From an uncultured Lachnospiraceae bacterium (GTDB taxonomy: Bacteria; Bacillota; Clostridia; Lachnospirales; Lachnospiraceae): DNA of 43,139 nt. Of the stretch, positions 7,829-22,862 are shown piece after piece (the stretch's first letter is position 1; every line of letters starts with the position of its first letter). The notes under the pieces were generated by a model. That model saw nothing but the letters and a program-made list of their open reading frames with translations. It did no database searches and was not told the DNA's origin. Where the stretch lies: assembly GCA_947165275.1 (NCBI GenBank), contig CAMUZQ010000016.1:1-43139 (forward strand). The letters run 5' to 3'. The position numbers and the translations under genes were made by a program.

Positions 7829-9597
7829 AGGATCTCCTCCTTGTCTCTCTCCACGACTCTGCCTCCCGCCGTCTCGTAAACCTTATCGCAGCATTTTATT
7901 GTGGAGAGCCTGTGAGCTATGATTATAAGAGTCGCAGAGCCGCTCAGTGTCTCTATGGCATCCATCACGGCCCTTTCGGTATCATTATCAAGAGCCGACG
8001 TAGCCTCGTCCAGGACCAGCACCTCCGGCTTTCTGAGCAGGGCTCTTGCAATTCCCAGCCTCTGCTTCTGACCGCCGGACAGCTGCACTCCTCCGGGCCC
8101 CACCTCGCTCATAAGCCCCTTCGGAAGCCTCCTTACAAAATCCTCCGCCTGAGCCGCCCTCAGAGCTTCCCATACCTCCTCATCACTCACGCTGCCTGCC
8201 TCTGCTCCGAAGATGATATTTTCCTTTATCGTCCCATCAAGGATATATATGTCCTGGGGAATATAACCTATGATCCTGTGCCATTTTTCCGGTGAGCCGT
8301 GTATATCCGTATCATCAGCATAAATATGCCCCTCCACAGGCTCCAGCAGACCCATTATAAGATCAGCGAGAGTGGTCTTTCCCGCTCCCGTAGCCCCTAT
8401 GAATCCTACGGTGCTGTTCCTCGCGATATCAAGAGAGACCCTGTCAAGTATCACAGCCCCGGGACGGGACGGATAATAAAAGCTCACATCCCGCAGATGT
8501 ATGCCCTCTCTTAAGTGACATGCCTCCTCACTCTCCGCCGCACCTCCTCCTGAAGGCATATCCTTATGCTCCTTCATATCCTGCAGATCCCGGTACAGTG
8601 CCTCCACAGAGGCTTTATTATAGAGGATAACGCCCAGCTCCGCAGATATACGGTTAAAGGAGGGGAGCATCCTTACCGCCGCCACCGCAAATACAGATAT
8701 AGTCGGGATAAAGCCCGCGATATCTCCTCCTGAATATATCCTTAATGAAATAAAGCCCAGCAGCCCGCATATCATTACAGTCTCCATCAGCGGTCTGGGA
8801 GCGATCTGCATCAGCATCTGGCTTCTCTGCGCATATACCCTCTCCCTGTAGGCCCTGTCGTATACATCGAGGAAATACCTCTCACTGTCCCTTGCCTTTA
8901 TCTCCTTGATCCCTTCGAAGGCCTGCAGTATCCCCCGGTTCATTTTCGCTGTAGCCGTCCGGTTTTTCTGCCCCAGTGCCACCAGCTTTTTTCGGAATAC
9001 ACAAAATACCAGAAAAAGGAATACACCCATGAGACCAAGTATGAGGAGTGTCGTATATATATCCTGCACCATCAGAAAGCCGGTCAGAAATATACAGGTA
9101 AAGGCCTCTGTTATGAACTGGATGATGTTTATCATCACAATGAAAAAATTGTCCACATCATCCCTCACATTCCTGTGCAGCTCCGCGACGCCATGCCTTG
9201 TATGGAAGAGATACTCACGGCTCATATAATGATCCATCAGCCTGTATGAGATAATACGCTGATTATTGTAGACATATCTGTATTGAAGGGAATACATGAA
9301 AAGAATATAGGAATTTTTGATGATATATACCAGTATCATCATCCCGGCCAGCACCAGAATAAGCTCCCTCACCTCTGCGATCCCCAGGAGAGATGCCAGA
9401 CGGGCATATCCCCCCCTTTCCATATTTGACGGATCGCTCACAAGAGTGACTAAAGGAAGGATGGCGGATACCCCCGCCATCTCCATGAAAGAACCGATCA
9501 TTATCACAAACAGGAGTGCAAGCAGACCGGCCTTTTGTTTTCTGTCCAGAATATTAAGGATATAATGCAGATTTTTTATTATCCGGCTTTCATTCAT
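7825..9597 (-). CDS. ABC transporter, PglK-like lipid-linked glycan flippase
   Basis: A 590-residue half-transporter: six membrane helices (about 20-320) fused to an ATPase with Walker A GATGAGKTT, signature LSGGQKQR, Walker B VLVLDEATSALD and a switch histidine in IIAHRLS. The membrane half, with its GVSAILPLV opening and long cytoplasmic loops, resembles PglK/WlaB, which flip undecaprenyl-diphosphate oligosaccharides, more than a peptide or drug exporter. It has no C39 peptidase. It lies between glmS (28 bp upstream) and a GT4 glycosyltransferase (4-bp overlap), which supports export of the glycan made by this cluster. No Wzx or Wzy is visible in the window, so this protein is the best flippase candidate. 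Substrate is inferred. Confidence 0.8.
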   Translation of the reverse strand: MNESRIIKNLHYILNILDRKQKAGLLALLFVIMIGSFMEMAGVSAILPLVTLVSDPSNMERGGYARLASLLGIAEVRELILVLAGMMILVYIIKNSYILFMYSLQYRYVYNNQRIISYRLMDHYMSREYLFHTRHGVAELHRNVRDDVDNFFIVMINIIQFITEAFTCIFLTGFLMVQDIYTTLLILGLMGVFLFLVFCVFRKKLVALGQKNRTATAKMNRGILQAFEGIKEIKARDSERYFLDVYDRAYRERVYAQRSQMLMQIAPRPLMETVMICGLLGFISLRIYSGGDIAGFIPTISVFAVAAVRMLPSFNRISAELGVILYNKASVEALYRDLQDMKEHKDMPSGGGAAESEEACHLREGIHLRDVSFYYPSRPGAVILDRVSLDIARNSTVGFIGATGAGKTTLADLIMGLLEPVEGHIYADDTDIHGSPEKWHRIIGYIPQDIYILDGTIKENIIFGAEAGSVSDEEVWEALRAAQAEDFVRRLPKGLMSEVGPGGVQLSGGQKQRLGIARALLRKPEVLVLDEATSALDNDTERAVMDAIETLSGSATLIIIAHRLSTIKCCDKVYETAGGRVVERDKEEIL

Positions 9598-9625: not shown

Positions 9626-11494
9626 TCACTCTACCGTAACGGATTTTGCGAGATTCCGAGGCTTATCTACATCAAGTCCCTTTGCAACGCTGATATAATA
9701 CCCAAGGAGCTGAAGAGGGATGACGGCAAGAGATGCCGCGAAATGCTCCTCTATCCTGGGTACATATACCGCAAAATCAACCGTATCCTCTATTTCATAA
9801 TGGCCATAGGTAGTAAGACCCATGAGATAGGCTCCCCTGGCCTTGCATTCCACCATATTGCTCACGGTCTTCTCATAAAGATCATTCTGCGTAAGCACTC
9901 CGATCACAAGGATACCGTCCTCGATAAGGCTTATGGTTCCATGCTTCAGCTCTCCGGCCGCATAGGCCTCTGAGTGGATATAGGAAATCTCCTTCATCTT
10001 GAGGCTTCCCTCGAGCGAAGCAGCATAATCCAGGCCTCTTCCCACAAAGAACACATCCCTGGCATTCGCATATTTGGCCGCAAACCACTGAAGCCTTTCC
10101 TTGTCATTGAGTATCTTCTGTATCTTTTCCGGGAGTGTCTTCATCTCGGAAATATACATTGCATATTTCTCATCATCTATGAGCCCCCTGACATGGCCGA
10201 AGTGGACCGCAAGCGCATAACTGACCACAAGCTGAGTGCTGTAGGCCTTGGTAGTGGCGACGGCTATCTCGGGACCTGCAAGGGTATATATCACATTATC
10301 CGCCTCCCTCGCTATGGAAGACCCGACCACATTCACTACGCCCAGAGTCTTCGCTCCAAGCGCCTTCGCCTCCCTGAGCGCAGCAAGTGAGTCCGCCGTT
10401 TCCCCGGATTGGGATATTATCATCACCAGATCATTGCTCTCAAGATGCGGCTTCCTGTATCTGAACTCGGAGGCTAGCTCAACCCTTACCGGTATGCCGG
10501 TAAGATCCTCGAATACATACTGGGCCGCCATCCCCACATGCCAGGCAGAACCGCAGGCTACTATGAATATATTCCGTATATCCTTGATATCCTCATCGGT
10601 TATGCCCGTCTCGCCAAGATCGATCATGCCGTTCTTTATCACAGAAGCCAGGGTGTCCTCCACAGCTCTCGGCTGCTCATGGATCTCCTTCATCATGAAA
10701 TGCTCAAAGCCGCCCTTTTCCGCAGCCTCGGCATCCCACTCTATGGTAACCCTTTCCTTATTTATCTCATCCCCGTCAAGATTGTAAAAATGAACCTCTC
10801 CGGCTCTGAGGCAGGCCATTTCCTGATTGCCTATATAATATACATTTCTGGTATATTTAAGGATGGCGGGTACATCAGACGCCACATAGGCCGCATCCTC
10901 AGTCACTCCTATGACCATGGGTGAATCCTTCCTGGCAACCCATACCTCGTCCGGATGCTCCCTGAACATAAGAGCCAGAGCATATGATCCCCTTACACGC
11001 ACCATGGTCTTTGCAATGGCATCTATCGGCCCTATCCCGTATTTATTGTAATAATAATCCACCAGCTTGACTGCCACCTCTGTATCCGTCTGGGAATAAA
11101 AGGCATAATCATGTCTCAGAAGCTTTTCCTTAAGCTCCTGATAATTCTCTATTATGCCGTTATGGACCCCTACTACATTGGTTTCCTCAGCCGGAGTGCC
11201 ATGCTCTATCCTGTTTGCGGAAATATGAGGATGGGCATTTATCTCCGAGGGCTCGCCATGAGTAGCCCATCTTGTATGTCCGATACCCAGAGTCCCGTGC
11301 AGTGAAGCGCCGTCATTTGTCTTTTCGGCAAGGACCTTCAGCCTTCCCTTGGCCTTTACCACCCTTACTCTTCCATCGCTGTCCCGGACCGCCATCCCGG
11401 CAGAGTCATATCCCCTGTACTCCAGCTTTGCAAGTCCGTCAAGTATTATCGGTGCCGCCTGATCATGTCCTACATATCCTACTATCCCGCACAT
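9626..11494 (-). CDS. glmS: Glutamine-fructose-6-phosphate aminotransferase (isomerizing)
   Basis: Makes glucosamine-6-phosphate, the first committed step to UDP-GlcNAc for wall and glycan synthesis. The 622 residues have the glutaminase domain with nucleophile Cys2 (MCGIVGYVG), the GHTRWATHG and HNGIIENY motifs, then two SIS domains containing CGSAWH, SQSGETADS and TTKAYS, and the usual C-terminal LAKSVTVE. The start ATG lies about seven bases after AAAGGA and overlaps the end of the upstream glycosyltransferase gene by 32 bp. There is therefore no room for a glmS ribozyme, which many Firmicutes place just upstream of this gene. Expression must follow the operon promoter. Confidence 0.97.
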   Translation of the reverse strand: MCGIVGYVGHDQAAPIILDGLAKLEYRGYDSAGMAVRDSDGRVRVVKAKGRLKVLAEKTNDGASLHGTLGIGHTRWATHGEPSEINAHPHISANRIEHGTPAEETNVVGVHNGIIENYQELKEKLLRHDYAFYSQTDTEVAVKLVDYYYNKYGIGPIDAIAKTMVRVRGSYALALMFREHPDEVWVARKDSPMVIGVTEDAAYVASDVPAILKYTRNVYYIGNQEMACLRAGEVHFYNLDGDEINKERVTIEWDAEAAEKGGFEHFMMKEIHEQPRAVEDTLASVIKNGMIDLGETGITDEDIKDIRNIFIVACGSAWHVGMAAQYVFEDLTGIPVRVELASEFRYRKPHLESNDLVMIISQSGETADSLAALREAKALGAKTLGVVNVVGSSIAREADNVIYTLAGPEIAVATTKAYSTQLVVSYALAVHFGHVRGLIDDEKYAMYISEMKTLPEKIQKILNDKERLQWFAAKYANARDVFFVGRGLDYAASLEGSLKMKEISYIHSEAYAAGELKHGTISLIEDGILVIGVLTQNDLYEKTVSNMVECKARGAYLMGLTTYGHYEIEDTVDFAVYVPRIEEHFAASLAVIPLQLLGYYISVAKGLDVDKPRNLAKSVTVE

Positions 11495-12365
11495 ATCTTT
11501 TTCCTTTCCTGTAACCCAGATACCTTCCCGCGCACTGCGCGATAAATTCCGGTATCATATACCAATAACCGTTTTTCAAAAGATAGGAAATACATCCTCT
11601 GACCAGCTTTTTCCCCTCACCTACAGAAGATACGCCTCCGAAAACCTCCGGATGCTCCGCCTGTGACCGGCCCAGATCCACATTTCTACGGTACTGCTCG
11701 CAGGGTGTGTAATCATGGCTGTGATATACCCTGGCCCGGGAAGCATAATAGACTGCATATCCCGCTTCTATGGCATCATGGGCATAGATCATGTCCTCAT
11801 TGAACACCGTATGCTCTATATGCCCTCCCAGCTTATCATATATATCCCTCCTGTAGCAGGCGCATACATCAGAACAGAAATAAGTCTTTATCCCGAGCCT
11901 TCCGGTATCTTCCTTTGTCTTTTTCATATCCCCTTCGGGGTAATTAAAGCTCCGGTTGTATCTCTCGATGGGGGAAGCCCCCTTTACCGGAAGCTGTCTG
12001 GCATAAGTGACCGCTATCTGCTCATCCGACTCAAAGGGTTCCAGAAGCCTTTCCATGAGCCTCCTGTCCGCAGGCAGGGCATCCATGGTCATATATATGA
12101 GAAAAGCGGCATCTGAATACACTGCCGCAGCCTTTCTCGTCCCACCATGGTCGAAATCATTCTTTGAGAGATGATGGATCTCTATATTGTCATACGAAGC
12201 AAGCCTTGCATCCCTGTCCATAAGCTCATCCAGATATTCCCTCTCGGTATTCATCAGGATTATCTTGTTCGGACGCACCGTCTGTTTCTCGAGCCTTTCT
12301 ATTATATCACACAAAACCCTTTCAGGCTTATATGTGAGGATCACAACATCCGCCTGCTTCGTCAC
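11463..12365 (-). CDS. GT2-family glycosyltransferase (rhamnosyltransferase-like)
   Basis: A 300-residue GT-A fold enzyme. The opening DVVILTYKPERVL, the following EKQTVRPNKIILMN strand, a YMTMDALPAD region in place of a classical DXD, and the late YHSHDYT and RYRRNVDLGRS-like segments resemble rhamnosyltransferases of exopolysaccharide clusters. It shares ATGA with the preceding LCP gene (4-bp overlap) and overlaps glmS by 32 bp, so it sits in a tightly coupled trio. The donor sugar is inferred only from general resemblance. No rhamnose synthesis genes lie in this window. Confidence 0.85.
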   Translation of the reverse strand: MTKQADVVILTYKPERVLCDIIERLEKQTVRPNKIILMNTEREYLDELMDRDARLASYDNIEIHHLSKNDFDHGGTRKAAAVYSDAAFLIYMTMDALPADRRLMERLLEPFESDEQIAVTYARQLPVKGASPIERYNRSFNYPEGDMKKTKEDTGRLGIKTYFCSDVCACYRRDIYDKLGGHIEHTVFNEDMIYAHDAIEAGYAVYYASRARVYHSHDYTPCEQYRRNVDLGRSQAEHPEVFGGVSSVGEGKKLVRGCISYLLKNGYWYMIPEFIAQCAGRYLGYRKGKRYVRDSRICRT

Positions 12366-14065
12366 AGTCCGCTGGCTGTCCTGTCAGCCTGTATCTTTTC
12401 AGATATCGTCTGTACATTCGGAGTAGGAGTATAGGATGACTCCCCGAAGAGGAAGGTATGCATCTCCTCTACATTGGTCATGAGCGTATCCGGCACTACC
12501 ATCGACTGCTTTCCGATCTTCCCTGTCACATTCTCGAAGGGGAAGCCTCTCGTCTCCGCTATGGTATAGCTGCCCACCTTCGAAGCATAGCCTGCAAACT
12601 CGGCAGCCGTGAAGCTGGTGGTTATCTGAGGGAGGACATCATCCATTATCTTATTCAGCTGCGCAAGCGATGCTCCCTTTGCCTTCTGGACGATCTGGGA
12701 GATCACCTCTCTCTGTCTCTCAGTACGCCTGAAATCAGATCCGGATGTGTATCTTATACGGCAGTATGCCGTTGCCTGAAGTCCGTTAAGCGTCTGGGGT
12801 CCCGGCTGAGTCACGGCAATGAAGTTTCTCGGATTCTTGATCTTGCCTTCATTGGGTCCTCCCAGATCCATTACAATACTGAACTGATAATCATTGATAT
12901 AATCCACCTCTTCCGGAAGCACATTGATCTCCACTCCGCCGAGGTCATCTATTATATCCTCAAGCGCATCAAAATCCACTGTGATAAAATCATCCACATT
13001 CATATCAGTGTTCATGTTTATCATCCTGATAGCCTGCTCGGGACCACCCTTGGCATATGCTGCATTGGCCTTGGTGTAATTCGGATTTTCCATGCTGTCT
13101 ATATTCAGATATGTATCTCTGTATATAGAACACATCTTTACCTCATTTGTTTTGGTATTTATGGAAGCGATTATGATGGTATCAGACCTCGTACCGCCTG
13201 CATCCACACCGAAAAGAGCCACATTCTTATAGCCCTTCATTCCCCATTCGTCGCTTCCGCCGCTGTCCTCATCCTCCACCTCGGCAAGAGCCTCTTTCAG
13301 CTCCTGATTGATAAAGATCTGGCTCTCTGTAAGAGTTGTCTTGTTTACCTTGCTCCATTTAAGGATGATAAATAAAGCAATGATAAGCACGATGAATATG
13401 ACCAGCTCCACAGCAAAGAGAATGAAGCGTTTTTTCTTTTTGGGCTCACCGGCATGATCATTTCTTGCTGTATTCTTCCTGCTGTCTGGCTTCTTTCCTC
13501 CCGAAGCAGCTGCAGACTTTGCCGGTCTTTTCTTTTTTGCGCCGGCCTTCCCTGCAGGAGCAGTTTTCTTTACAGGCTTCCTGGCAGACTGTCTTGCAGG
13601 CTGTCTGACAGGCTTCGGGGGAGTTTTTTTCGAAGGCTTCATTCCGGATGAAGGCCTTTTCTGCCTTACGCTGCGCTCCTCCTCGTAGTATTCATCCTCG
13701 TCCTCGTATTCATCATCTTCGTAATACTCATCATCTTCGTCGTAGTATTCTTCATCCTCATCAAAATACTCTTCTTCATCTCCATACTCTTCTTCGTCTT
13801 CAAATTCTTCTTCATCTTCGTACTCTTCTTCGTCTTCGTATTCCTCTTCATCCTCATAGTACTCTTCCTCGTAGTACTCTTTTTCATCGAAGCCGCGTCT
13901 GCGGGCACTGTTTCCCTGGACCTTTCCCCTGCGGTCATTCTCCTCATCATCCTCAAATGCCACATAATTATCACGGTCATATTTTCCGAAGCCGTTATAG
14001 CCGTCATATTTTCTTTTATTTGTTTTATTTGAATGATCTCTGCCCGATCCGTCCCTGGTTGCCAT
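12362..14065 (-). CDS. LytR-CpsA-Psr (LCP) family protein with acidic/basic N-terminal tail
   Basis: LCP enzymes transfer lipid-linked glycans onto peptidoglycan outside the membrane. This 567-residue protein has a cytoplasmic N-terminus of about 213 residues, one membrane helix (about 214-236), and an external LCP domain from about 278, with NVALFGVDAG, RSDTIIIASIN, the RDTYL motif and the arginines of IRYTSGSDFRRTERQRE. The tail is extraordinary: residues 60-130 are nearly all Glu, Asp and Tyr, and 131-213 are rich in Lys, Arg, Pro and Ala. It heads an operon with a good promoter (14177-14205). The nearest Shine-Dalgarno-like GAAGGAG lies 16 bases from the ATG, unusually far. It probably anchors the surface glycan made by its neighbours. 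Confidence 0.92.
   Translation of the reverse strand: MATRDGSGRDHSNKTNKRKYDGYNGFGKYDRDNYVAFEDDEENDRRGKVQGNSARRRGFDEKEYYEEEYYEDEEEYEDEEEYEDEEEFEDEEEYGDEEEYFDEDEEYYDEDDEYYEDDEYEDEDEYYEEERSVRQKRPSSGMKPSKKTPPKPVRQPARQSARKPVKKTAPAGKAGAKKKRPAKSAAASGGKKPDSRKNTARNDHAGEPKKKKRFILFAVELVIFIVLIIALFIILKWSKVNKTTLTESQIFINQELKEALAEVEDEDSGGSDEWGMKGYKNVALFGVDAGGTRSDTIIIASINTKTNEVKMCSIYRDTYLNIDSMENPNYTKANAAYAKGGPEQAIRMINMNTDMNVDDFITVDFDALEDIIDDLGGVEINVLPEEVDYINDYQFSIVMDLGGPNEGKIKNPRNFIAVTQPGPQTLNGLQATAYCRIRYTSGSDFRRTERQREVISQIVQKAKGASLAQLNKIMDDVLPQITTSFTAAEFAGYASKVGSYTIAETRGFPFENVTGKIGKQSMVVPDTLMTNVEEMHTFLFGESSYTPTPNVQTISEKIQADRTASGL
13676..13888 (-). repeat. Imperfect tandem repeat encoding the Glu/Asp/Tyr tract of the LCP protein
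   Basis: About 210 bp of near-repeating units of roughly 18 bp, reading as mixtures of TCTTCG, TCATCC and ATACTC on the plus strand. They encode EYEDEE-type units (residues 60-130). The repeat is coding and in frame. Such tracts can change length by slippage. Confidence 0.8.
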
Positions 14066-14205: not shown

Positions 14206-14226
14206 CTTTTTTATTTAAGCACAACA

Positions 14227-14257
14227 ATTGGGAGCGGCCTGTTATGCCGTTCCCAAT
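14227..14257 (-). terminator. Hairpin after the precursor-peptide gene
   Basis: ATTGGGAACGG and CCGCTCCCAAT on the minus strand form an 11-bp stem with one wobble and a short loop, about 60 bp beyond the peptide stop. The following bases (TGTTGTGCTT) are only moderately T-rich, so termination may be partial. It separates the exporter operon from the LCP promoter. Confidence 0.6.
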
Positions 14258-14317
14258 ATACTCCCGAACCTTCAGCGGATGTACCGCTTATTCATCCATT
14301 TACTGCCTGCCCACTGC

Positions 14318-14578
14318 TCACACCTGCCCTCTGAGCTCCTGTACCTGCTTCCAGCCCACGATCAGATGGTTCTTTCCCTTCGCTCCTGATGCCGCTATCG
14401 CATCATCCCTGCTGGGATATCTTCCCAGCGTAGTTCCGTCTGTATCATCAATAACCTCCCATGGATTATCTTTATCCGATCCCTCTATATCACCGGCAAA
14501 AAAGACCAGTCCCCCGCTCACTCCGTCAAGCTGATCCTCATCAAGCCTGCTCATTTCTCTGGCATCTTCCTTTTTCAT
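14318..14578 (-). CDS. Double-glycine leader precursor, likely cargo of the adjacent exporter
   Basis: An 86-residue protein with a leader of 23 residues ending LDEDQLDGVSGG, the classic recognition and cleavage site for C39-peptidase ABC exporters. The 63 residues after Gly23 begin LVFFAGD and include WEVIDDTDG, LGRYPSRDDAIAASG and HLIVGWKQVQELR. They have no cysteine and few serines or threonines, so the body cannot form lanthionine, sactionine or cysteine-derived azole rings. It reads like a small folded alpha/beta domain. A perfect AAGGAGGT lies six bases before the ATG, implying high output. It follows the second exporter ABC gene by 92 bp. Cargo status is inferred from leader and position. 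Bacteriocin, signal or surface factor are all possible. Confidence 0.75.
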   Translation of the reverse strand: MKKEDAREMSRLDEDQLDGVSGGLVFFAGDIEGSDKDNPWEVIDDTDGTTLGRYPSRDDAIAASGAKGKNHLIVGWKQVQELRGQV

Positions 14579-14584
14579 ACCTCT

Positions 14585-14641
14585 ACCTCCTTGAATTATG
14601 CTTATTTGTTTCCTTCATCTGTCCTTGTCTATATATTTATA
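14585..14641 (-). promoter_or_regulatory. Strong ribosome binding site and possible -10 of the precursor gene
   Basis: AAGGAGGT occupies 14592-14585, a perfect match to the anti-Shine-Dalgarno sequence with a six-base spacer. TATAAA at 14641-14636 could be a -10 element, but no convincing -35 is present. A separate promoter for the precursor is therefore possible but weakly supported. Confidence 0.45.
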
Positions 14642-14670: not shown

Positions 14671-16863
14671 TTACAGTCTCTGTCTTTCAACCAGCTCTGC
14701 GAAGAATCCATTCTTTTCTGTAAGCTCTTCATAGGTTCCGTCCTCGATTATCTTTCCTCCATCCAATACGAGTATCCTGTCACACTGACGGATGGTGGAA
14801 AGCCTGTGGGCTATTATGATCCTTGTACACTTCAGCGCATCCAAAGCCTCTGTGACCTGCTTCTGTGTCCTGTTGTCAAGAGCGGAGGTAGCCTCGTCAA
14901 ACATGAGTATCCTGGGCTTTCCTGCTATGGCCCGCGCTATCATGAGTCTCTGCCTCTGTCCCCCCGAAATACCGCCGCTGCCCTCCGAGACCATGGTATG
15001 CATTCCCATGGGCATTTTCCTTATATCATCCGCTATCCCGGCATTCTCACAGGCCTCCCATGCCTCCTCCATGGTAAGACCCGGACATGAGATCGAAACA
15101 TTCTCATATATGCTTCCTGCTATCAGACGTCCGTTCTGCATGACCACGCCGATACGGCGCCTCAGGGATTTCATATCAAGCTTCTTTATATCCCTTCCGT
15201 CATAATATATCGCGCCCTTTTCCGGCTTTTCAAAGCCCAGCAGGAGACGCAGGAGAGTGGATTTTCCGCAGCCCGTCCGTCCCACTATCGCCACATACTG
15301 TCCCGGACGGATCTTCAGGTTCATGTCATTCACGACAAGAGGCGAGCTCTCATTATATCTGAAGGAAACATGTGTCAGCTCTATGGATCCGCTCACATGA
15401 TCCACCACGGCCTTATCCTCGGCTATTTCCGGCTCAGCCTCCATTATGGGCCGCGCCATCTCAAGTATCGCCTTGATCTGGGACACTGTGAGTGCTATGC
15501 CCGCAAGAGACTGGAAGGCTCCCATCACCATGCCGTAGGCCGTGTTGAAAGAGAAATAGTCCGCTGCAGTTATCCCGGAACCTATAGAAAGTCCGTAAAG
15601 GATGACAGTCCCTACAAGCCCTATAGCCGTTGGGATCGTAGCGGTCAGTCTGAGATACCAGGGCAGGTCATATTCCAGAGCCGCTGCCTCGGAATAAAGG
15701 TCAGCCCACTTGGAAAAAGCTCTTTTTTCGGATCCTGACAGCTTGATCTTCTGAAGTCCGGAGATGATCGCATATGACAGGCTGCTGACCTTGGCCTCCT
15801 TCTCCATCCTCTGTCTGGCTATACCAAGGGCCAGAAAGGACAGTATGACCGTAGTGCCGATGGTCACGAAAATGATGCCTATGGCAGGCCACATGAGCAC
15901 GGGCGCAAAATGTCTGATCTGGGCCACATAGATAAGGGACATTATCGCCGTAAGTCCCGTCGAAAAGATGACATTCATGATATTCTGGCACAGGGAGCTC
16001 ATATACTGGACCCTCTGCGCCAGCTCTCCTGTTCCGTAATCGCCGAAAAAGCTCGCAGGCATGGAAAGCACCCTCATCATTACCGCCGCCTCAACAGAAA
16101 ACTGCGTCTTGGTCAGGATCCGGTTTAATATCATGGTCTTTACTATAGTAAACAACGTGACTGATATGGAAAAAGCCACAAAAAAGGAGCCCGCTGCAGC
16201 AAGAACTCTTAAATTGCCTCTGGTGAGCACCTTCGACAGCAGCAGATTCTGAAATCTGGGCAGGACTGTTCCCGTGATCGTGACCACGGCAGTAGCTATG
16301 ACAAGCATTATCTGATCCCGCGCGGAGATAGTTCTGAAGATATACTGCATCATATCCTTCATGCTCATTGATTTCAGAGGCAGAGGCCTGTAGAAGCAGA
16401 GCGCCTCCTCTCTGAAGATATCCTGGCTGGAAGCATCCACTATCCTCTCTCTGTTTTCATGAGTATCAAAGAATATGTACTCCGAGCCGTATTTCTGAAG
16501 CAGAGCGACAAAGCTTCCGTCATCCTTCCTTACCCCTATCATGGGTCCGAAGGCATCCTTATACCATCCCTTTGTAAGCGAAACCCTCCTGTACATTATA
16601 CCGTGGGGACGCAGCATATATTCGAGCTGATCCTCAGGATCGACGACCCTGTCAGGCACCTTGCCTGGCTTCAGATGATAAAACTTCAGCACGGATTCTA
16701 TCGCATTTTTTGCAAGCATACTGTTATCAGTGTATGCCGTATATACTCCCTTGCCCATAACAGCCGAAGCCATATGCGCAAAAGACCCCTCGAACCAGGT
16801 CTTGTCATTCAGTTTTCTCTGCTGTATCTGCTCGTCAAACCAACCGCTCATCCCTGCAGCCAT
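14671..16863 (-). CDS. NHLP-type exporter, second ABC transporter subunit
   Basis: A 730-residue half-transporter. Residues 1 to about 185 are a soluble domain lacking Cys-His-Asp peptidase residues. Six membrane helices (about 190-480) and an ATPase follow, with Walker A GRTGCGKSTLL, signature ISGGQRQR, Walker B ILMFDEATSALD and an HRLSTI switch. The long non-proteolytic N-terminal domain fits the second ABC protein of NHLM/NHLP bacteriocin export systems, which pairs with a C39-containing ABC protein. That partner lies 29 bp upstream and the likely cargo 92 bp downstream. Family placement comes from domain order, not a search. Confidence 0.88.
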   Translation of the reverse strand: MAAGMSGWFDEQIQQRKLNDKTWFEGSFAHMASAVMGKGVYTAYTDNSMLAKNAIESVLKFYHLKPGKVPDRVVDPEDQLEYMLRPHGIMYRRVSLTKGWYKDAFGPMIGVRKDDGSFVALLQKYGSEYIFFDTHENRERIVDASSQDIFREEALCFYRPLPLKSMSMKDMMQYIFRTISARDQIMLVIATAVVTITGTVLPRFQNLLLSKVLTRGNLRVLAAAGSFFVAFSISVTLFTIVKTMILNRILTKTQFSVEAAVMMRVLSMPASFFGDYGTGELAQRVQYMSSLCQNIMNVIFSTGLTAIMSLIYVAQIRHFAPVLMWPAIGIIFVTIGTTVILSFLALGIARQRMEKEAKVSSLSYAIISGLQKIKLSGSEKRAFSKWADLYSEAAALEYDLPWYLRLTATIPTAIGLVGTVILYGLSIGSGITAADYFSFNTAYGMVMGAFQSLAGIALTVSQIKAILEMARPIMEAEPEIAEDKAVVDHVSGSIELTHVSFRYNESSPLVVNDMNLKIRPGQYVAIVGRTGCGKSTLLRLLLGFEKPEKGAIYYDGRDIKKLDMKSLRRRIGVVMQNGRLIAGSIYENVSISCPGLTMEEAWEACENAGIADDIRKMPMGMHTMVSEGSGGISGGQRQRLMIARAIAGKPRILMFDEATSALDNRTQKQVTEALDALKCTRIIIAHRLSTIRQCDRILVLDGGKIIEDGTYEELTEKNGFFAELVERQRL

Positions 16864-16892: not shown

Positions 16893-19049
16893 CTATTCAC
16901 TCGTGATAAGCTGTGTATACAGCCCGCCCCTGGCAAAAAGCTCATCATGAGTGCCTCTCTCGACAACATCTCCGTGATCCATCACTATTATTTCATCACT
17001 ATCCCGTATAGTGGACAGTCTGTGCGCGATAACTATACAGGTTATGCCTCTGTTCTTAATGGCGCTGACAACCTCATACTCTGTCTTGGCATCAAGCGCG
17101 GAGGTTGCCTCATCCAGGATGATCACTGTAGGATCCTGTGCCAGAACCCTGGCTATCTCAAGTCTCTGCCTCTGGCCTCCGGAGAAATCCTTTCCGCCCT
17201 CGCTTATCACATAATCATAACCGCCGTCCCTCTGGATGATATCGTCATGGATCTGGGCATCCCTGGCTGCCATTATCATCTCAAAGTCTTCGATGGACTT
17301 ATCCCACATCTTTATATTATTGGAAATGGAATCCTCGTATAGGATTATATCCTGATCGACTACGGCAAGAGAGCCTGTAAATACACTCCGCTCGATATCC
17401 TGCATCCTTTTCCCGTCGAATAATATCTCTCCTTCCCAGGGCTGGTACAGGCCCGATATAAGCTTGGAAAGTGTGGACTTTCCGCAGCCGGACATGCCTA
17501 CAAAGGCGACACAGCCCCCGGGCTTTATGGACATATTGAAATCCTTTATAAGAGGCGGCTCCAGCTTTGAATATCCGAAGGTCACGTGCTTCATCTCCAC
17601 GCTGCCCTTTATTTTTGCATAATCCGCATCCTCCCTCAGCGGCTCGTCCTTGAAGGCGGGGTCCACCGGATACTTCATCACATCATCTATCCTCTCCATC
17701 TGGGTCCTCATTTCCTGGATGGACTGGCTGGAAGCGATGAGCTCGGTTGCAGGCGCCGTAAATCCCTGCAGATATCCCATGAAGGCCATTATCATACCTA
17801 TGGTAAATCTTCCCTTCATCGCAAGATACACCCCTGCAATGAGTATAAGATCCGATGTGAGCATATTGATAAAGGAAGGAAGCATACCCAGAAACTGACT
17901 CAGCTCATAGAATTTCATCTGCTGGGTATTAACGCTGGCCTGATAGCCGGCCCATTTTTCAAAAAAGCCGTTCTCTGCTCCGGCAGCCTTCAGCGTCTCT
18001 ATAAGCTCTATGCCGTTGGTTGTGGTTCCGGCCAGCTTGCCCTGATCCCTCATCTGCACCCTGGTTATATTCACCCTTTTCGAGGACACAAAAGAGGAAA
18101 TGGCAAGATTGAGCGCTATCGATATGATCCCCGCCACGGTGAGCTTGACACTGTAGCTCATCATGACCACGAGATAAAAGATCATCATGACAGCCTTCAG
18201 CAAAAGAGGCGCAAAGGTATCCACCAGTGTGGATGCTATCACTTCATTGGTAGACTGTCTCTGCTGGATATCTCCGGCCATCCTCTGACTGAAAAACTCC
18301 ATGGGCATGCGGAGCACCTTCCACATGTATGTGGAGTTTCCTATTATGGCCAGTTTTCCGTTTATCTTTAAGGAATATATCTCCTGAAGCGCAAGAACAA
18401 CTATTTCAATGAATGAAAAAACGCTCAGGAAAATGAGAAAGCCTCTGGTCCATCCCGTATTGGTCCCTGACAGCAGTCTGTCGATAAAAACCCTCGAAAA
18501 CCCGGGTGAGATGACCTCCATCAGAGAGGTCGTTACAGCAGTCAGTATGGCAAATGCCACCGCGGAAGCGGTTCCGCTCATCCTTTCCCTGACGAAAGAG
18601 AGCACACTCCGCTTTTTTCCGTCCCTGACAAAGTTCTCTGAGGGTTCAAACATAAGACAGATCCCTGTAAATGATCTGTCAAACTCCTCCATCGATACCT
18701 TGACTCTGCCGCGCGCAGGGTCATTTAATATGGCGCAGTCCCTGCCAAAGCCGTCAAGCACAACAAAATGGTTGAAATTCCAGTGGATGATACAGGGGAA
18801 TTCCCCCTCTTCCCGGAGAAAATCAGGCTCCACCCTGTATCCGTCAGCATTCATCCCATAGCTTCTCGCAGCAGCAACTATATTTTTTGCCTTTGATCCG
18901 TCCCTTGATACACCGCAGTCCGACCTCATCTTCTCCAGCGGGATCCACTTTCTGTGATAGGCCATTATCATGCACAGGCAGGCAGCACCACACTCAAGTG
19001 CCTCCAGCTGCATGACAACAGGAACCTTTACCGTCTTATTTTTTGCCAT
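16893..19049 (-). CDS. Peptidase C39-containing ABC exporter (NHLP-type)
   Basis: A 718-residue transporter-protease that should cut the leader after Gly-Gly and export the cargo. The N-terminal C39 domain (numbered from the ATG at 19049) has Gln14, catalytic Cys20 in LECGAACL, His94 in HFVVLDG and Asp110 in LNDPARG. Six membrane helices follow, then an ATPase with GMSGCGKSTL, FSGGQRQR and VIILDEATSALD. I chose ATG 19049 because GGGGGAAG precedes it and C39 domains begin just before the catalytic cysteine. A TTG 16 codons upstream lacks a binding site. The gene overlaps the HlyD-like gene by 14 bp. All catalytic residues look intact. Confidence 0.93.
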   Translation of the reverse strand: MAKNKTVKVPVVMQLEALECGAACLCMIMAYHRKWIPLEKMRSDCGVSRDGSKAKNIVAAARSYGMNADGYRVEPDFLREEGEFPCIIHWNFNHFVVLDGFGRDCAILNDPARGRVKVSMEEFDRSFTGICLMFEPSENFVRDGKKRSVLSFVRERMSGTASAVAFAILTAVTTSLMEVISPGFSRVFIDRLLSGTNTGWTRGFLIFLSVFSFIEIVVLALQEIYSLKINGKLAIIGNSTYMWKVLRMPMEFFSQRMAGDIQQRQSTNEVIASTLVDTFAPLLLKAVMMIFYLVVMMSYSVKLTVAGIISIALNLAISSFVSSKRVNITRVQMRDQGKLAGTTTNGIELIETLKAAGAENGFFEKWAGYQASVNTQQMKFYELSQFLGMLPSFINMLTSDLILIAGVYLAMKGRFTIGMIMAFMGYLQGFTAPATELIASSQSIQEMRTQMERIDDVMKYPVDPAFKDEPLREDADYAKIKGSVEMKHVTFGYSKLEPPLIKDFNMSIKPGGCVAFVGMSGCGKSTLSKLISGLYQPWEGEILFDGKRMQDIERSVFTGSLAVVDQDIILYEDSISNNIKMWDKSIEDFEMIMAARDAQIHDDIIQRDGGYDYVISEGGKDFSGGQRQRLEIARVLAQDPTVIILDEATSALDAKTEYEVVSAIKNRGITCIVIAHRLSTIRDSDEIIVMDHGDVVERGTHDELFARGGLYTQLITSE

Positions 19050-19545
19050 TCTGATTATCTTCCCCCGTAATGAATGACATAGGGCGTATCTGTTCAACTA
19101 TAATCTCTGAGGAATATGATCCGTTTGGTACATTCGCCTTTGCCGTTACGGCATACAGCATCTCATATCCGCTCAGGCCAAGATCCTCAAGAGTCCTGGC
19201 ATCATAAACACCGGAAGCCTGCACAGGTACGGTGGATACAGATTCGATCTTTGCATTCTGACCGCCCACATACATCACATCCGATTTATCAACCTCTTTT
19301 GCCACGTCATGGTTTACATAACAAATCGCAAGACTGTCATCCACAAAAGCAACCGTTTCCGCCGCAGTATTAAGCCTGCCGAATACACCCCAGACAATGA
19401 TCCCCAAAAGCATTACTATTATCGCGATAAGCACGACCCAGACGCTGGGACCGATGACCCTTATATAATCATTCAGCTGCTCCGGTGCGGATATGCTGTC
19501 CAGACTGCTTTTTCGGAAAAGTCCGCTGTTATTGCTTTCTTCCAT
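19036..19545 (-). CDS. Short HlyD-like NHLP secretion accessory protein
   Basis: A 169-residue protein opening with FRKSSLDSISAPEQLNDYIRV, a signature of NHLM bacteriocin secretion (HlyD-type) proteins. One membrane helix follows (about 34-55) and then an external beta-rich segment. HlyD adaptors of this class usually exceed 350 residues and carry a long coiled coil. Here coiled coil and lipoyl halves are essentially missing, leaving the anchor and a short barrel-like tail. There is no frameshift or partner fragment nearby, so the short form looks native, which is plausible for a cell without an outer membrane. Its ATG is fused to the stop of the DHH gene (TAATG) and its end overlaps the C39-ABC gene. 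Confidence 0.8.
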   Translation of the reverse strand: MEESNNSGLFRKSSLDSISAPEQLNDYIRVIGPSVWVVLIAIIVMLLGIIVWGVFGRLNTAAETVAFVDDSLAICYVNHDVAKEVDKSDVMYVGGQNAKIESVSTVPVQASGVYDARTLEDLGLSGYEMLYAVTAKANVPNGSYSSEIIVEQIRPMSFITGEDNQNGKK

Positions 19546-20465
19546 TATCCCTGCAATTTTCCGATTATATTCGGAAGCTCCTTATCAACAACCTCATTAT
19601 CCAGCTGGCATGTCCCTGCATTCCTGTGTCCGCCGCCGCCATAGGACAGGCATACCTTTCCTATATCGACATTTGAGTCCTTGTTTATTATGCTCTTGCC
19701 GATCATTACGGCAGTATTCTGCTTCTTGAAGCCCCAGGCCACATGAACCGATATCTGTATTTCCGGATACATTGCATATACCATAAACCGGTTGCCTGCG
19801 TATATCGTCTCCTCATTTCTAAGATCTATCACACCCACATTGCCATGTATCTTTGTGAGTCTTCCAAGCTGCTCCTTGAAGCTCTCATTCTGGCTGAAAT
19901 AAAGATCTGTTCTCTCCTTCACATCGGGAAGCTCGAGTATCTCGTCAATGGGCTTTATCATGCATGCATCTATGAGCTCCATCATGAGATCGTAGTTTGA
20001 TATCCTGAAATCATGGAAGCGTCCCAGTCCCGTGCGCGCGTCCATTATGAAATTCATCAGATTCCAGCCCTTGGGGTCCAGTATCTCCTCTCTTGTAAAA
20101 TCAGCGCTGTCACCCTTATCGACTGCCATCATTATCTCATCCGACACTCTCTTGAAGGTATCCTTGCCTCCGTAGTAGTTATATACCACTCTTGCAGCTG
20201 ATTTTGCCTCACCCTCTATGATCCACCTGTCCTTGACATCAAGACCGGCATTACGGGCAAGCTCGCTTTCGTGATGGTCAAATGCAAGCCCCACCCTGGG
20301 ATCGAAGGGCAGATTTGTCGTGATATCATTTTCGCTAAGCTCGATCTTTCCATCCTGCACATCCTTCGGATGCACAAATTTGATATCATCGATCAGATCC
20401 AGTTCCTTCAACAGCATAGCGCAGACAAGTCCGTCAAAATCACTTCTGGTAACCAATCTTTTCAT
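19545..20465 (-). CDS. DHH-family phosphoesterase (exopolyphosphatase-like)
   Basis: A 306-residue cytoplasmic hydrolase of the DHH/DHHA1 superfamily, which cleaves polyphosphate, short oligonucleotides or cyclic dinucleotide products with Mn2+. Visible motifs are SDFDGL near the N-terminus, FDHHES (the DHH signature) around residue 65 and the C-terminal GGGGHRNAGTC of DHHA1. I place the start at ATG 20465 because AAAGGA lies seven bases upstream; an upstream GTG or ATG would overlap the previous gene and lacks a binding site. It begins 40 bp after the sugar transferase and its stop overlaps the HlyD-like start (TAATG). The substrate cannot be told from sequence. Confidence 0.85.
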   Translation of the reverse strand: MKRLVTRSDFDGLVCAMLLKELDLIDDIKFVHPKDVQDGKIELSENDITTNLPFDPRVGLAFDHHESELARNAGLDVKDRWIIEGEAKSAARVVYNYYGGKDTFKRVSDEIMMAVDKGDSADFTREEILDPKGWNLMNFIMDARTGLGRFHDFRISNYDLMMELIDACMIKPIDEILELPDVKERTDLYFSQNESFKEQLGRLTKIHGNVGVIDLRNEETIYAGNRFMVYAMYPEIQISVHVAWGFKKQNTAVMIGKSIINKDSNVDIGKVCLSYGGGGHRNAGTCQLDNEVVDKELPNIIGKLQG

Positions 20466-20505
20466 AATCATATCCTTTCCTTTTTTAATGTTTTCACATA
20501 TATGC

Positions 20506-21939
20506 TCAGTATGCATTCTTGTTTATCAGTCCCCTGAATACAGTCATGAACATTATCCTTATATCAAAAAGAAGACTCCAGTTTTCTATATAATATATAT
20601 CATATTTTATACGGTCTTTGATAGAGGTATCTCCTCTCAGGCCGTTCACCTGGGCCCAGCCCGTAAGCCCTGGTCTGACCTGGTGCTTTATCATGTATCT
20701 GGGTATCTCTTCTTTAAATTTCTCAACAAACTGGGGACGCTCCGGTCTCGGTCCCACTATGGACATATCTCCCTTTAATATATTAAAAAGCTGGGGAAGC
20801 TCGTCCATGCTCGTGCCTCTTAAGACCCTGCCGACACTTGTCACTCTGGGATCGTTCCGTACCGTCCAGTAATTCTTCTCCTCGCTTTCCTTCTGCATTT
20901 CCATCGTTCTGAATTTATACATCATGAAGGTCCTGTTATGGAGTCCGACCCTCTCCTGCTTATATATCACAGGCCCCTCCGATGACAGCCTCACGGCGAT
21001 CACCGAAACCAGCATGATAGGGGAGAATAATATCATGAGTATCACTGATCCCACAATGTCTATGAGTCTCTTTATTATCCTGTTTTCCGTGAAGGCAAGC
21101 GGCACATTCCTGATATTGATCACAGGAAGCCCCTCCATGTCCTCCATGATCGGTCTTGAAGGGATGACCCTGTTATAGTCGGGAATAAACTGGGTATGCA
21201 CTCCGCTCTTCTCACACTTCGCCACTATGCGCTCAAGCTTGCTGTATTCATCCAGAGGCAGGGTTATGGCGATCTCCACGATCTTATTCTCGGGAAGGAT
21301 CACATCCAGATTTGCTATCCTGCCCAGAACCTTTACCCCTCTGAGCATGGTCCCTGCGGGAACCCTGTCATCCAGTATGCCGCAAACCTCATAGCCCCAT
21401 TGTGGATTAAGCCTTATCCGCCGTATATATTCCTCTGCGGACTTGGAATATCCCACGAGCAGAAGGTATTTCTTATTATATCCCTTTTTTCTTATAAAGT
21501 GCAGTATGTATCTGATGATATTTCGCATCAGTGTCTCGAGCACTATATTTACGACCATGAATATCGCCAGCATGGACCTTGCGAAGTCATTCTGGTTTAT
21601 GATATACAGCACGGATACAAAGATGATAAAGCCCGCCAGATTGGAATAGATGATATTGACAAGCTCTTTCCGCCTGCCCCCCAGTCTCTTTGATCTGTAC
21701 AGTCCGAACTGATTATACAGGAAAATATAGGCAACGATCAGGAAGGGAAGCGCCTGCATATACATGGACATGGGCAGATGGGGTATGTTCGGATCATTGA
21801 GCACCGTATTGAACCTGATCTCATACGCAATAAAGTAAGACAGCCCCGTTACCGCGCCATCCAGCACTACATGCACTCTGTTGAGAAAGCTCTGGTTGTT
21901 TCTGATCATCCCGGTAATCTCCTGAAGAGATTCAGCCAT
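20506..21939 (-). CDS. Polyprenyl-phosphate sugar-1-phosphate transferase (WcaJ/CpsE type)
   Basis: Starts a lipid-linked glycan by moving a hexose-1-phosphate from a nucleotide sugar to undecaprenyl phosphate. The 477 residues include four N-terminal membrane helices (about 20-130), a CoA-binding-like Rossmann region (about 150-260), a fifth helix (about 285-310) and the bacterial sugar transferase domain, with YKQERVG, MYKFRTM, DELPQL, DMSIVGPRPE and RPGLTGWAQVNG. All expected catalytic motifs are present. It overlaps the upstream GT2 gene by 34 bp. This is the priming enzyme for the glycan whose extension genes lie upstream, although the sugar (glucose or galactose is usual) is not determined. 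Confidence 0.93.
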   Translation of the reverse strand: MAESLQEITGMIRNNQSFLNRVHVVLDGAVTGLSYFIAYEIRFNTVLNDPNIPHLPMSMYMQALPFLIVAYIFLYNQFGLYRSKRLGGRRKELVNIIYSNLAGFIIFVSVLYIINQNDFARSMLAIFMVVNIVLETLMRNIIRYILHFIRKKGYNKKYLLLVGYSKSAEEYIRRIRLNPQWGYEVCGILDDRVPAGTMLRGVKVLGRIANLDVILPENKIVEIAITLPLDEYSKLERIVAKCEKSGVHTQFIPDYNRVIPSRPIMEDMEGLPVINIRNVPLAFTENRIIKRLIDIVGSVILMILFSPIMLVSVIAVRLSSEGPVIYKQERVGLHNRTFMMYKFRTMEMQKESEEKNYWTVRNDPRVTSVGRVLRGTSMDELPQLFNILKGDMSIVGPRPERPQFVEKFKEEIPRYMIKHQVRPGLTGWAQVNGLRGDTSIKDRIKYDIYYIENWSLLFDIRIMFMTVFRGLINKNAY

Positions 21940-22862
21940 AATTCAAGCTGGATCACAAAATAATTCTTCAGGTTCTTTGACGAATATGGGAACTTTCTTG
22001 CCTGCCTGCAGAGGATATATCCTCTTTTCAGTCCGGACAGATAAGCCCTGCCATGTCCTATCATAATAAAAAACAATGCCTTTATCATGAATCCCGCCAA
22101 AAGGAAGGGGAGGTTTATGATCACCTGGAGCGCCGGCATATTCTTCATTATCAAATACATATTGTTTCTGGCGGAGATCCTGATCTTGAAGTCATTATAT
22201 CTGCTCCCGGTCACGCCGCTTCCCACATGGTAGACTCTTGCTTCCGGACAGTATATATTACTGTAACCCATGATCCGCGCCCTGTAGCCTATGTCCGTAT
22301 CCTCCAGATAGGCAAAATGAAACTCATCGAACCATCCTATCTCATCCAGGATGCTCCGCCTGTATATGGCTGCTCCGCCGCAGGCAGCAAAAACCTTCGC
22401 CTCCCTGGTATATCCCGCGGAGCTCCTGCCCTTGCCCCTGGCATAGGCCCAGCCGAAGGCCGAATACAGATCCCCGGCCCCGTCAAGCTTATCCGGATCC
22501 TTCATCTGGATCATCTTCGAAGCCACGGAAAATATCCGGTCATCCCTTTTTATCGTTTCGACCAGCGCCTCCACAAACCCCTCCTCGGCTCTGGTATCGG
22601 AATTCAGAAGCAGCACAAAAGGGGATCCCGACATTCTGAGCCCTTCATTTACAGCCCTGGAAAAGCCGTAATTCTGGTCCAGTCTTTTGATCCTCACATC
22701 CTTGTATTCATTCTCCACTATATCAGCCGAGCCGTCCTTTGAGTCATTATCCACGACTATGATCTCAAAATCCCTGTAGCTCTGGATCTTCAGAGAATCT
22801 ATACAATCCCTTATGAAGCTGCCCCCGTTATAATTGGGGATTATAATGCTTACTTCGCTCAT
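21906..22862 (-). CDS. GT2-family glycosyltransferase (WbbL-like)
   Basis: A 318-residue GT-A enzyme. The N-terminal VSIIIPNYNGG, VDNDSKDGS and LLLNSDTR (the metal-binding Asp) are followed by ACGGAAIYRR, the FAYLEDTDIGYR acid motif and a YHVGSGVTGS segment near 215. This set is typical of dTDP-Rha:GlcNAc rhamnosyltransferases and related enzymes. The C-terminal 90 residues are basic and partly hydrophobic, suggesting membrane association. Its stop lies inside the next gene (34-bp overlap) and its ATG directly follows the previous stop codon. Donor specificity is not known. Confidence 0.9.
   Translation of the reverse strand: MSEVSIIIPNYNGGSFIRDCIDSLKIQSYRDFEIIVVDNDSKDGSADIVENEYKDVRIKRLDQNYGFSRAVNEGLRMSGSPFVLLLNSDTRAEEGFVEALVETIKRDDRIFSVASKMIQMKDPDKLDGAGDLYSAFGWAYARGKGRSSAGYTREAKVFAACGGAAIYRRSILDEIGWFDEFHFAYLEDTDIGYRARIMGYSNIYCPEARVYHVGSGVTGSRYNDFKIRISARNNMYLIMKNMPALQVIINLPFLLAGFMIKALFFIMIGHGRAYLSGLKRGYILCRQARKFPYSSKNLKNYFVIQLELWLNLFRRLPG

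Follow-up and report, generated by a model that had tools for sequence, protein, structure and literature searches.

A small gene behind an exporter cluster of an uncultured Lachnospiraceae bacterium probably encodes an unmodified secretion cargo, a precursor that would be cut past Gly23, exported and folded outside the cell. The gene lies in the window, the whole stretch of 43,139 nucleotides that was analysed, and the sequence-only reading had already proposed a secretion route of this kind for an unmodified small protein. The proposal is supported by the leader rule, the adjacency and co-occurrence of an exporter, the absence of LanM, SPASM or YcaO matches nearby and the lack of a cysteine column, as well as by the predicted fold of the core, purifying selection, the kept C39 residues and the acidic, hydrophilic cores. 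Cleavage, export, folding outside the cell and the place of action are steps that we infer from sequence and structure prediction. The precursor family looks new, as do its link with a type of exporter that was defined on modified precursors and the presence of its leader on many cores; the export route itself is a known one, to judge by its likeness to the precedents PCAT1/CtA, EbfG, MAM and class II bacteriocins.

As listed in Table 1, the precursor ORF (86 codons) lies on the minus strand as the last gene behind the exporter genes; the corresponding plus-strand frame is interrupted by a stop. Its leader, MKKEDAREMSRLDEDQLDGVSGG, ends with GG at residue 23 and is followed by a 63-residue core, so that the double-glycine precursor described earlier is borne out. 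Family conservation together with dN/dS values confirmed that the ORF is a real gene, beyond chance. The z value of the stem-loop past the gene was computed for 14225-14275, a stretch chosen by eye, and a scan for consensus terminators listed none at the precursor locus.

Table 1. Features of the precursor locus in the window
Feature	Position	Strand	Evidence
LytR-CpsA-Psr (cell-wall glycopolymer) gene, downstream; a neighbour, not part of the system	12362..14065	-	domain match
Stem-loop past the precursor gene, terminator-like, without a clear T run	14227..14257	-	z -3.1
Double-glycine precursor, 86 aa	14318..14578	-	family profile, dN/dS
Core, residues 24-86, predicted alpha/beta mini-domain	14321..14509	-	structure prediction of core alone
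Leader, residues 1-23: L(-12), L(-7), V(-4), GG	14510..14578	-	leader rule
Shine-Dalgarno GGAGGT, 6 nt before ATG	14585..14590	-	sequence scan
ABC permease/ATPase without peptidase, NHLP ABC2-like	14671..16863	-	TIGR03797, 703.6 bits vs cut-off 709.4
C39 peptidase / ABC exporter, NHLP ABC1	16893..19097	-	TIGR03796, 917 vs 853.3 bits
Short HlyD-like membrane protein, 169 aa	19036..19545	-	TIGR03794, 2.1e-7 over 46 residues, 30.2 vs 156.2 bits
Conserved upstream gene, sharing one base with the HlyD-like gene	19545..20516	-	same order in L048, L052

The relatives of the precursor were collected with an iterative profile of 50 ORFs, from which one short divergent row (L045:15421) was dropped to leave 49 members, the window protein included. 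The core statistics cover 47 cores, without the truncated rows L067 and L080; the starts of 21 rows were shifted by hand to an inner ATG, and alignment A1 holds 43/49 members. Hydrophobic residues at -12, -7 and -4 followed by GG were found in 49/49 members; here the first GG was used in the three sequences that contain two such pairs (L062, L064, L065), and the last one in L046 (GGG). According to the available part of the PCAT1 report, leader recognition by that exporter depends on conserved hydrophobic positions -12 and -7, together with a residue at -4 that confers specificity, ahead of the GG (PMC6959990). The C39-exporter cleavage signal first noticed in the window protein holds in all 49 members at the level of this rule.

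A search with the single sequence found relatives in 31/48 genomes of the genus, and the family profile gave 58 matches (E <=1e-4) in 35/48. Eight of these 58 were weaker than 1e-10 and are perhaps carried by the leader; the weakest best match of any family-bearing genus genome was 1.3e-14. Outside the genus the relatives were scarce: across the family Lachnospiraceae they occurred in 3/299 sampled genomes, that is, in 2/298 genera, and across the order only the own genome was positive among 295 genomes drawn. A pattern scan of named genome contigs returned 17 stretches, of which 15 were confirmed, all titled Lachnospiraceae and all metagenome-derived by title. Ruminant or rumen was named in 7/15, seven more carry RUG or RUI codes, which we take to denote rumen collections, and the remaining one is UBA3762. 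No confirmed relative was found in plasmids, phages or viral contigs. Results of the dN/dS analysis gave ratios of 0.06-0.23 in 8/11 precursor pairs, those with finite dS, while 3/11 yielded no ratio. Three pairs with dS <0.4 had values of 0.06, 0.23 and 0.22, and the other five had dS of 1.5-2.5, near saturation. On these sequence comparisons the family is judged to be under purifying selection.

The precursor relatives are an undescribed family in uncultured bacteria, many of them from rumens. Among the matches listed in the open-licence literature there was no report of the family, nor, for Lachnospiraceae, of one leader on many cores; in its available part, a survey of rumen isolates counted double-glycine core peptides as bacteriocins (PMC13289728). 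Two shorter double-glycine ORFs (L045, 15421-15618; L162, 1498-1683) have a body that by eye resembles the middle of the core, and are possibly a minimal version of the core domain.

The three genes ahead of the precursor belong to an exporter of NHLP type. ABC1, with a Peptidase_C39 domain at residues 25-154 and a true start that may lie at a downstream ATG, passed the TIGR03796 cut-off. ABC2 fell 5.8 bits short of TIGR03797, yet this was its best family by far, and the HlyD-like protein failed the TIGR03794 cut-off. The exporter is therefore of NHLP type but not textbook-complete, and the earlier description of it as complete stands for the C39-ABC gene, narrowly misses for ABC2 and fails for the HlyD-like protein. 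The residues Q, C, H and D, which we presume to be the catalytic residues of the C39 domain in these exporters, were kept in 48/48 aligned sequences. The catalytic C and H are given for PCAT1 in the accessible part of PMC6959990. In naive ORF calls at the window and the exporter loci L107-L146, the HlyD-like ORFs measured 73-186 aa beside window-type exporters and 207-607 aa beside exporters of a distant clade (about 40% identity).

Among the neighbours in the window, the gene at 19545-20516 is presumably DHH-type phosphoesterase-like, and those at 11463-12365 and 21906-22862 we take to be glycosyltransferase-like; we likewise assume GlmS, glycosyltransferases and a sugar-phosphate transferase in the surroundings. 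The LytR-CpsA-Psr gene adjoins the precursor also in L053, L043 and L063, and its protein has a long Glu/Asp/Tyr-rich repeat region ahead of a hydrophobic segment.

Cargo and exporter were found to be associated in the genus. With at most 18 candidates scored per genome, TIGR03796 matches at E 1e-100 or better were present in 43/48 genomes and matches over the cut-off in 38/48. At the E 1e-100 level, which also takes in ABC2-like and partial matches, 35 genomes had both, 8 the exporter only, 5 neither and none the cargo only (p 7.5e-4); at the curated cut-off the numbers were 32, 6, 7 and 3 (p 0.0018), both p values ignoring kinship and genome incompleteness. The three cargo-only genomes (G303, G306 and G312; completeness 61, 66 and 95%) had partial or ABC2-like exporter matches only. 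Across the family Lachnospiraceae, with at most 3 candidates scored per genome, over-cut-off exporters occurred in 31/299 genomes and the cargo in 3, each of them with an exporter. Exporters of the genus also accompany other cargos, and eight exporter-bearing genomes lack this one.

Physical proximity was more restricted. An over-cut-off NHLP-type C39 exporter is found no farther than 3.3 kb from seven of the 58 copies, vs. 0.4 expected by random placement, the limit having been picked after the distances were seen; at 10 kb the expectation is 1.06 copies (P 1.2e-4 for seven). One orthologous locus (window, L046, L048, L052, L053), in which the precursor stands directly behind ABC2 on the same strand, accounts for five of these copies; when three independent loci are counted, P becomes 0.009 for 3.3 kb and 0.09 for 10 kb. 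In L078 the precursor is directly behind a distant exporter (42% identity), in L084 it is two genes away on the opposite strand, and in L038, from another genus, it is convergent with the exporter. The outcome that would have spoken against the pairing, an exporter kept with other cargos and never with this one, was thus not what we found. In a tree of 48 exporters (those >690 aa in fetched regions, out of 77; the same set as for the C39 check), the window exporter fell, with good support, into a group of 7 exporters. Five of them have the cargo; as to the remaining two, the L143 contig ends soon past ABC2 and L110 is arranged differently there. The reading of the precursor as an exported cargo is weakened by the 51/58 copies with no over-cut-off exporter within 10 kb, many contigs being short, by the opposite strands in L038 and L084, by the cargo-only and the exporter-only genomes and by the short HlyD-like protein.

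Structure prediction suggested that the 63-residue core folds alone as a compact mini-domain. The core alone (15 sequences) was modelled with a mean pLDDT of 90.5 and a pTM of 0.75, with strands at 2-4, 17-20 and 27-31 and helices at 34-43 and 53-59 (core numbering). In the full-length model (17 sequences) the leader was of low confidence (block means 45 and 51) and the body ordered. The folded micro-domain imagined from the sequence is thereby upheld, as a prediction. Foldseek against the PDB gave no confident structural match for the core, VIA Z values stayed under 6, and the window protein had no NCBIfam match up to E 1. Among the 43 aligned members, DUF2188 was matched faintly by 11 at E <=0.1 (best 0.0078), though not by the window protein, and NDUS4, an NDUFS4-like domain, by 5 (best 0.0013); we regard both sequence relations as faint leads. 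The core pI was <7 in 46/47 and GRAVY negative in 47/47, and the conserved positions were mostly W, E, V, D, G, A and R, with Ala60 in 47/47. The window protein has no cysteine at all and 6 Ser+Thr in its core. The absence of cysteine noted earlier applies to this protein and to 22/47 untruncated cores, hence not to the family as a whole; still, no core column had Cys in >30% of the 47 rows. A single Ser/Thr-rich column was seen (position 56, 32/47), right ahead of a predicted helix.

The same export step would serve a class II-like bacteriocin, an exported unmodified product that kills or inhibits close relatives. Such bacteriocins (TIGR01847, Bacteriocin_IIc) share the double-glycine leader type and the lack of modification, and the paralogues here are diverging and lineage-restricted. 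Weak matches were recorded for TIGR01847 (11/43 members at E <=0.1, best 0.0021), NF038167 (10/43, best 0.00058), TIGR03949 (8/43, best 0.00077) and Bacteriocin_IIc (PF10439; 6/43 at E <=0.1, best 0.024), with the window protein matching neither TIGR01847 nor PF10439; they presumably fall in the leader. Acidic, hydrophilic cores with a fold predicted to be globular do not suit this explanation, nor does the surrounding gene content, with no constant small neighbour gene in the tabulated loci and housekeeping genes beside copies in five annotated loci. We consider it rather unlikely, although it is the strongest of the alternatives.

To assess modification of the peptide, three enzyme families were searched, namely LanM (PF13575), SPASM (TIGR04085) and YcaO (PF02624). 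No match to the three was found on the window contig, and none of the 58 cargo copies had one within 20 kb, although few contigs are that long: among 46 genus copies of known contig extent, 17 had 5 kb on both sides, 14 had 10 kb and 5 had 20 kb. The earlier statement that the window holds no modifying enzyme therefore stands for these three families, and enzymes of the three near homologues, the finding that would have contradicted it, did not turn up. Across the genus, LanM was present in 2/48, YcaO in 1/48 and SPASM in 43/48 genomes; two cargo copies share a contig with a SPASM match, the nearest at 30 kb and 277 kb. As a control, 11/77 over-cut-off genus exporters had LanM or SPASM within 10 kb, and 0/11 of these had the precursor cargo within 10 kb. 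The own genome offers the same contrast, with exporter and SPASM on contig C89 and exporter and precursor protein on C16.

These data bear on the possibility that the precursor is a RiPP, modified by enzymes encoded elsewhere or glycosylated by the product of one of the nearby glycosyltransferase-like genes. Modified precursors were the basis on which the NHLP exporter family was defined, as stated in the available part of PMC2887384 (Haft and others 2010), and most contigs do not extend far enough for a complete survey of enzymes. The own genome has 5 SPASM matches, all on other contigs, and the 11463-12365 gene occupies the same position in L043, L053, L063 and L039. Yet neither LanM nor YcaO was matched in the own genome, the distances above place none of the three families near a copy, and the cores have no conserved Cys column and only one Ser/Thr-rich column, while the neighbouring LytR-CpsA-Psr gene suggests that the glycosyltransferases serve polysaccharide. 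We judge modification of this precursor improbable. Elsewhere in the genus, a separate exporter clade (L113, L125, L137) is accompanied by Nif11-like leader peptides whose short terminal tails carry Cys and by a SPASM match about 1 kb from the exporters, in L113 a neighbouring radical SAM protein; these are likely true RiPP loci.

The leader was also found on other small proteins. A profile built from the family leaders matched 18 ORFs at E <=0.05 among 4332 ORFs (sizes up to 200 aa) of 40 exporter regions, vs. 0 of 4274 in reversed DNA. A CxxC motif was present in the core of 9/18, a few had longer, Nif11-like leaders, and within the window the precursor ORF was the sole match. That the precursor is a cytoplasmic protein and no export substrate, its GG segment and exporter neighbourhood being incidental, would fit the many copies not beside an exporter but is very improbable in the face of the full pattern in 49/49 members, the 18 matches on other cores, the co-occurrence of cargo and exporter, and a predicted core that folds without its low-confidence leader.

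In the own genome, a leader profile that includes two own leaders (C16, C54) gave 17 places at E <=0.91; we read these as about 18 distinct ORFs of 62-142 aa, the weaker of them unproven. The own-genome double-glycine ORFs (G000, L147-L163) are scattered over the genome, many with unrelated cores. The precursor family itself is on C16 and on C56 (a paralogue of 36% identity), with a short relative-like ORF on C3. CxxC-bearing ORFs are on C54 (two), C6, C29 and C37, and ORFs with other cores on C20, C28, C30, C37, C65, C88 and C119. A Pfam scan of 10 of these ORFs gave none over the cut-off, the nearest approach being C37:13177 (L163) to zinc ribbons. The ORF on C88 is about 6 kb from a SPASM match, so some cargo may put a similar leader to RiPP use.

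For the unmodified cargo, we propose the following course. Most likely, the leader would be bound via its hydrophobic -12, -7 and -4 residues by the C39 domain of the neighbouring NHLP-type exporter and cut past Gly23. The 63-residue body would then cross the membrane through the exporter, loosely folded, and outside the cell would fold into a stable, acidic, soluble alpha/beta mini-domain. The least certain step is the last, in which the mini-domain would most likely act at the cell surface or between cells and would not be membrane-active, because the core is acidic, hydrophilic and predicted to be globular and lies beside cell-surface polysaccharide genes; this points, weakly, to a surface or extracellular role, away from pore-forming bacteriocins.

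PCAT1 and its cargo CtA come from Clostridium thermocellum. This pair has similar proportions, a 24-residue leader and 66-residue cargo (PMC6959990, in its available part) vs. 23 and 63 here, with a C39-ABC exporter, a small-protein substrate and the same -12/-7/-4/GG rule. It differs in that the window has two ABC genes and a short HlyD-like gene, of NHLP type, and in that CtA is described as unstructured inside the transporter, the two cargos being compared by description. The NHLP/Nif11 systems resemble the window in the ABC1 match to TIGR03796 and in the HlyD-like, ABC1 and ABC2 genes side by side, but their average GG position is given as 83 (NHLP) and 70 (Nif11) in the accessible part of PMC2887384, whereas here the GG is at 23 with no long leader, and no match to LanM, SPASM or YcaO was found near the precursor. 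TIGR03798, the Nif11 leader model, matched 1/43 members (0.067) and not the window protein. Likened by description, EbfG1-4 of Synechococcus elongatus are several GG small proteins, secreted with the aid of the C39 transporter PteB, that act outside the cell in biofilm, in the available parts of PMC4997328 and PMC9981879; they belong to another phylum, and EbfG1-3 are amyloid-prone, unlike the predicted globular core. MAM of Faecalibacterium prausnitzii, named for its anti-inflammatory effect, is by description a gut bacterial GG protein (conserved GG at 20-21) with a C39 exporter adjoining in certain strains (PMC8836110, available part). For microcin V, length sets a limit on export and composition for the most part does not, according to the accessible part of PMC10231218.

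A wider proposal, which we advance tentatively and regard as possible, is that small, unmodified, folded proteins of many unrelated kinds leave the cells of this genus by one general route that is independent of signal peptides. A single, interchangeable double-glycine leader would mark these proteins for several NHLP-type C39 exporters, and the majority of them would not be antimicrobial. The proposed repertoire, about 18 proteins in one genome, would comprise the acidic alpha/beta domain and, among others, CxxC proteins resembling zinc ribbons. NCBI names NHLP-type exporters for bacteriocins, and here the exporter family travels with seemingly folded, unmodified small proteins. If this is true, mining of gut and rumen genomes overlooks a small-protein secretome, and the genus would allow a clean test of a general role for C39 exporters in the secretion of small proteins by anaerobic gut bacteria.

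Two further loci were observed. At L044 (G314:C23, 9725-10586), with no exporter among the listed neighbours, three consecutive double-glycine small-protein genes have three different cores. At L107 (G000:C54), the second window-type exporter of the own genome has double-glycine ORFs on either side (1996-2361 and 8682-9083), encoding proteins of 122 and 134 aa with four cysteines each, arranged as two CxxC pairs.
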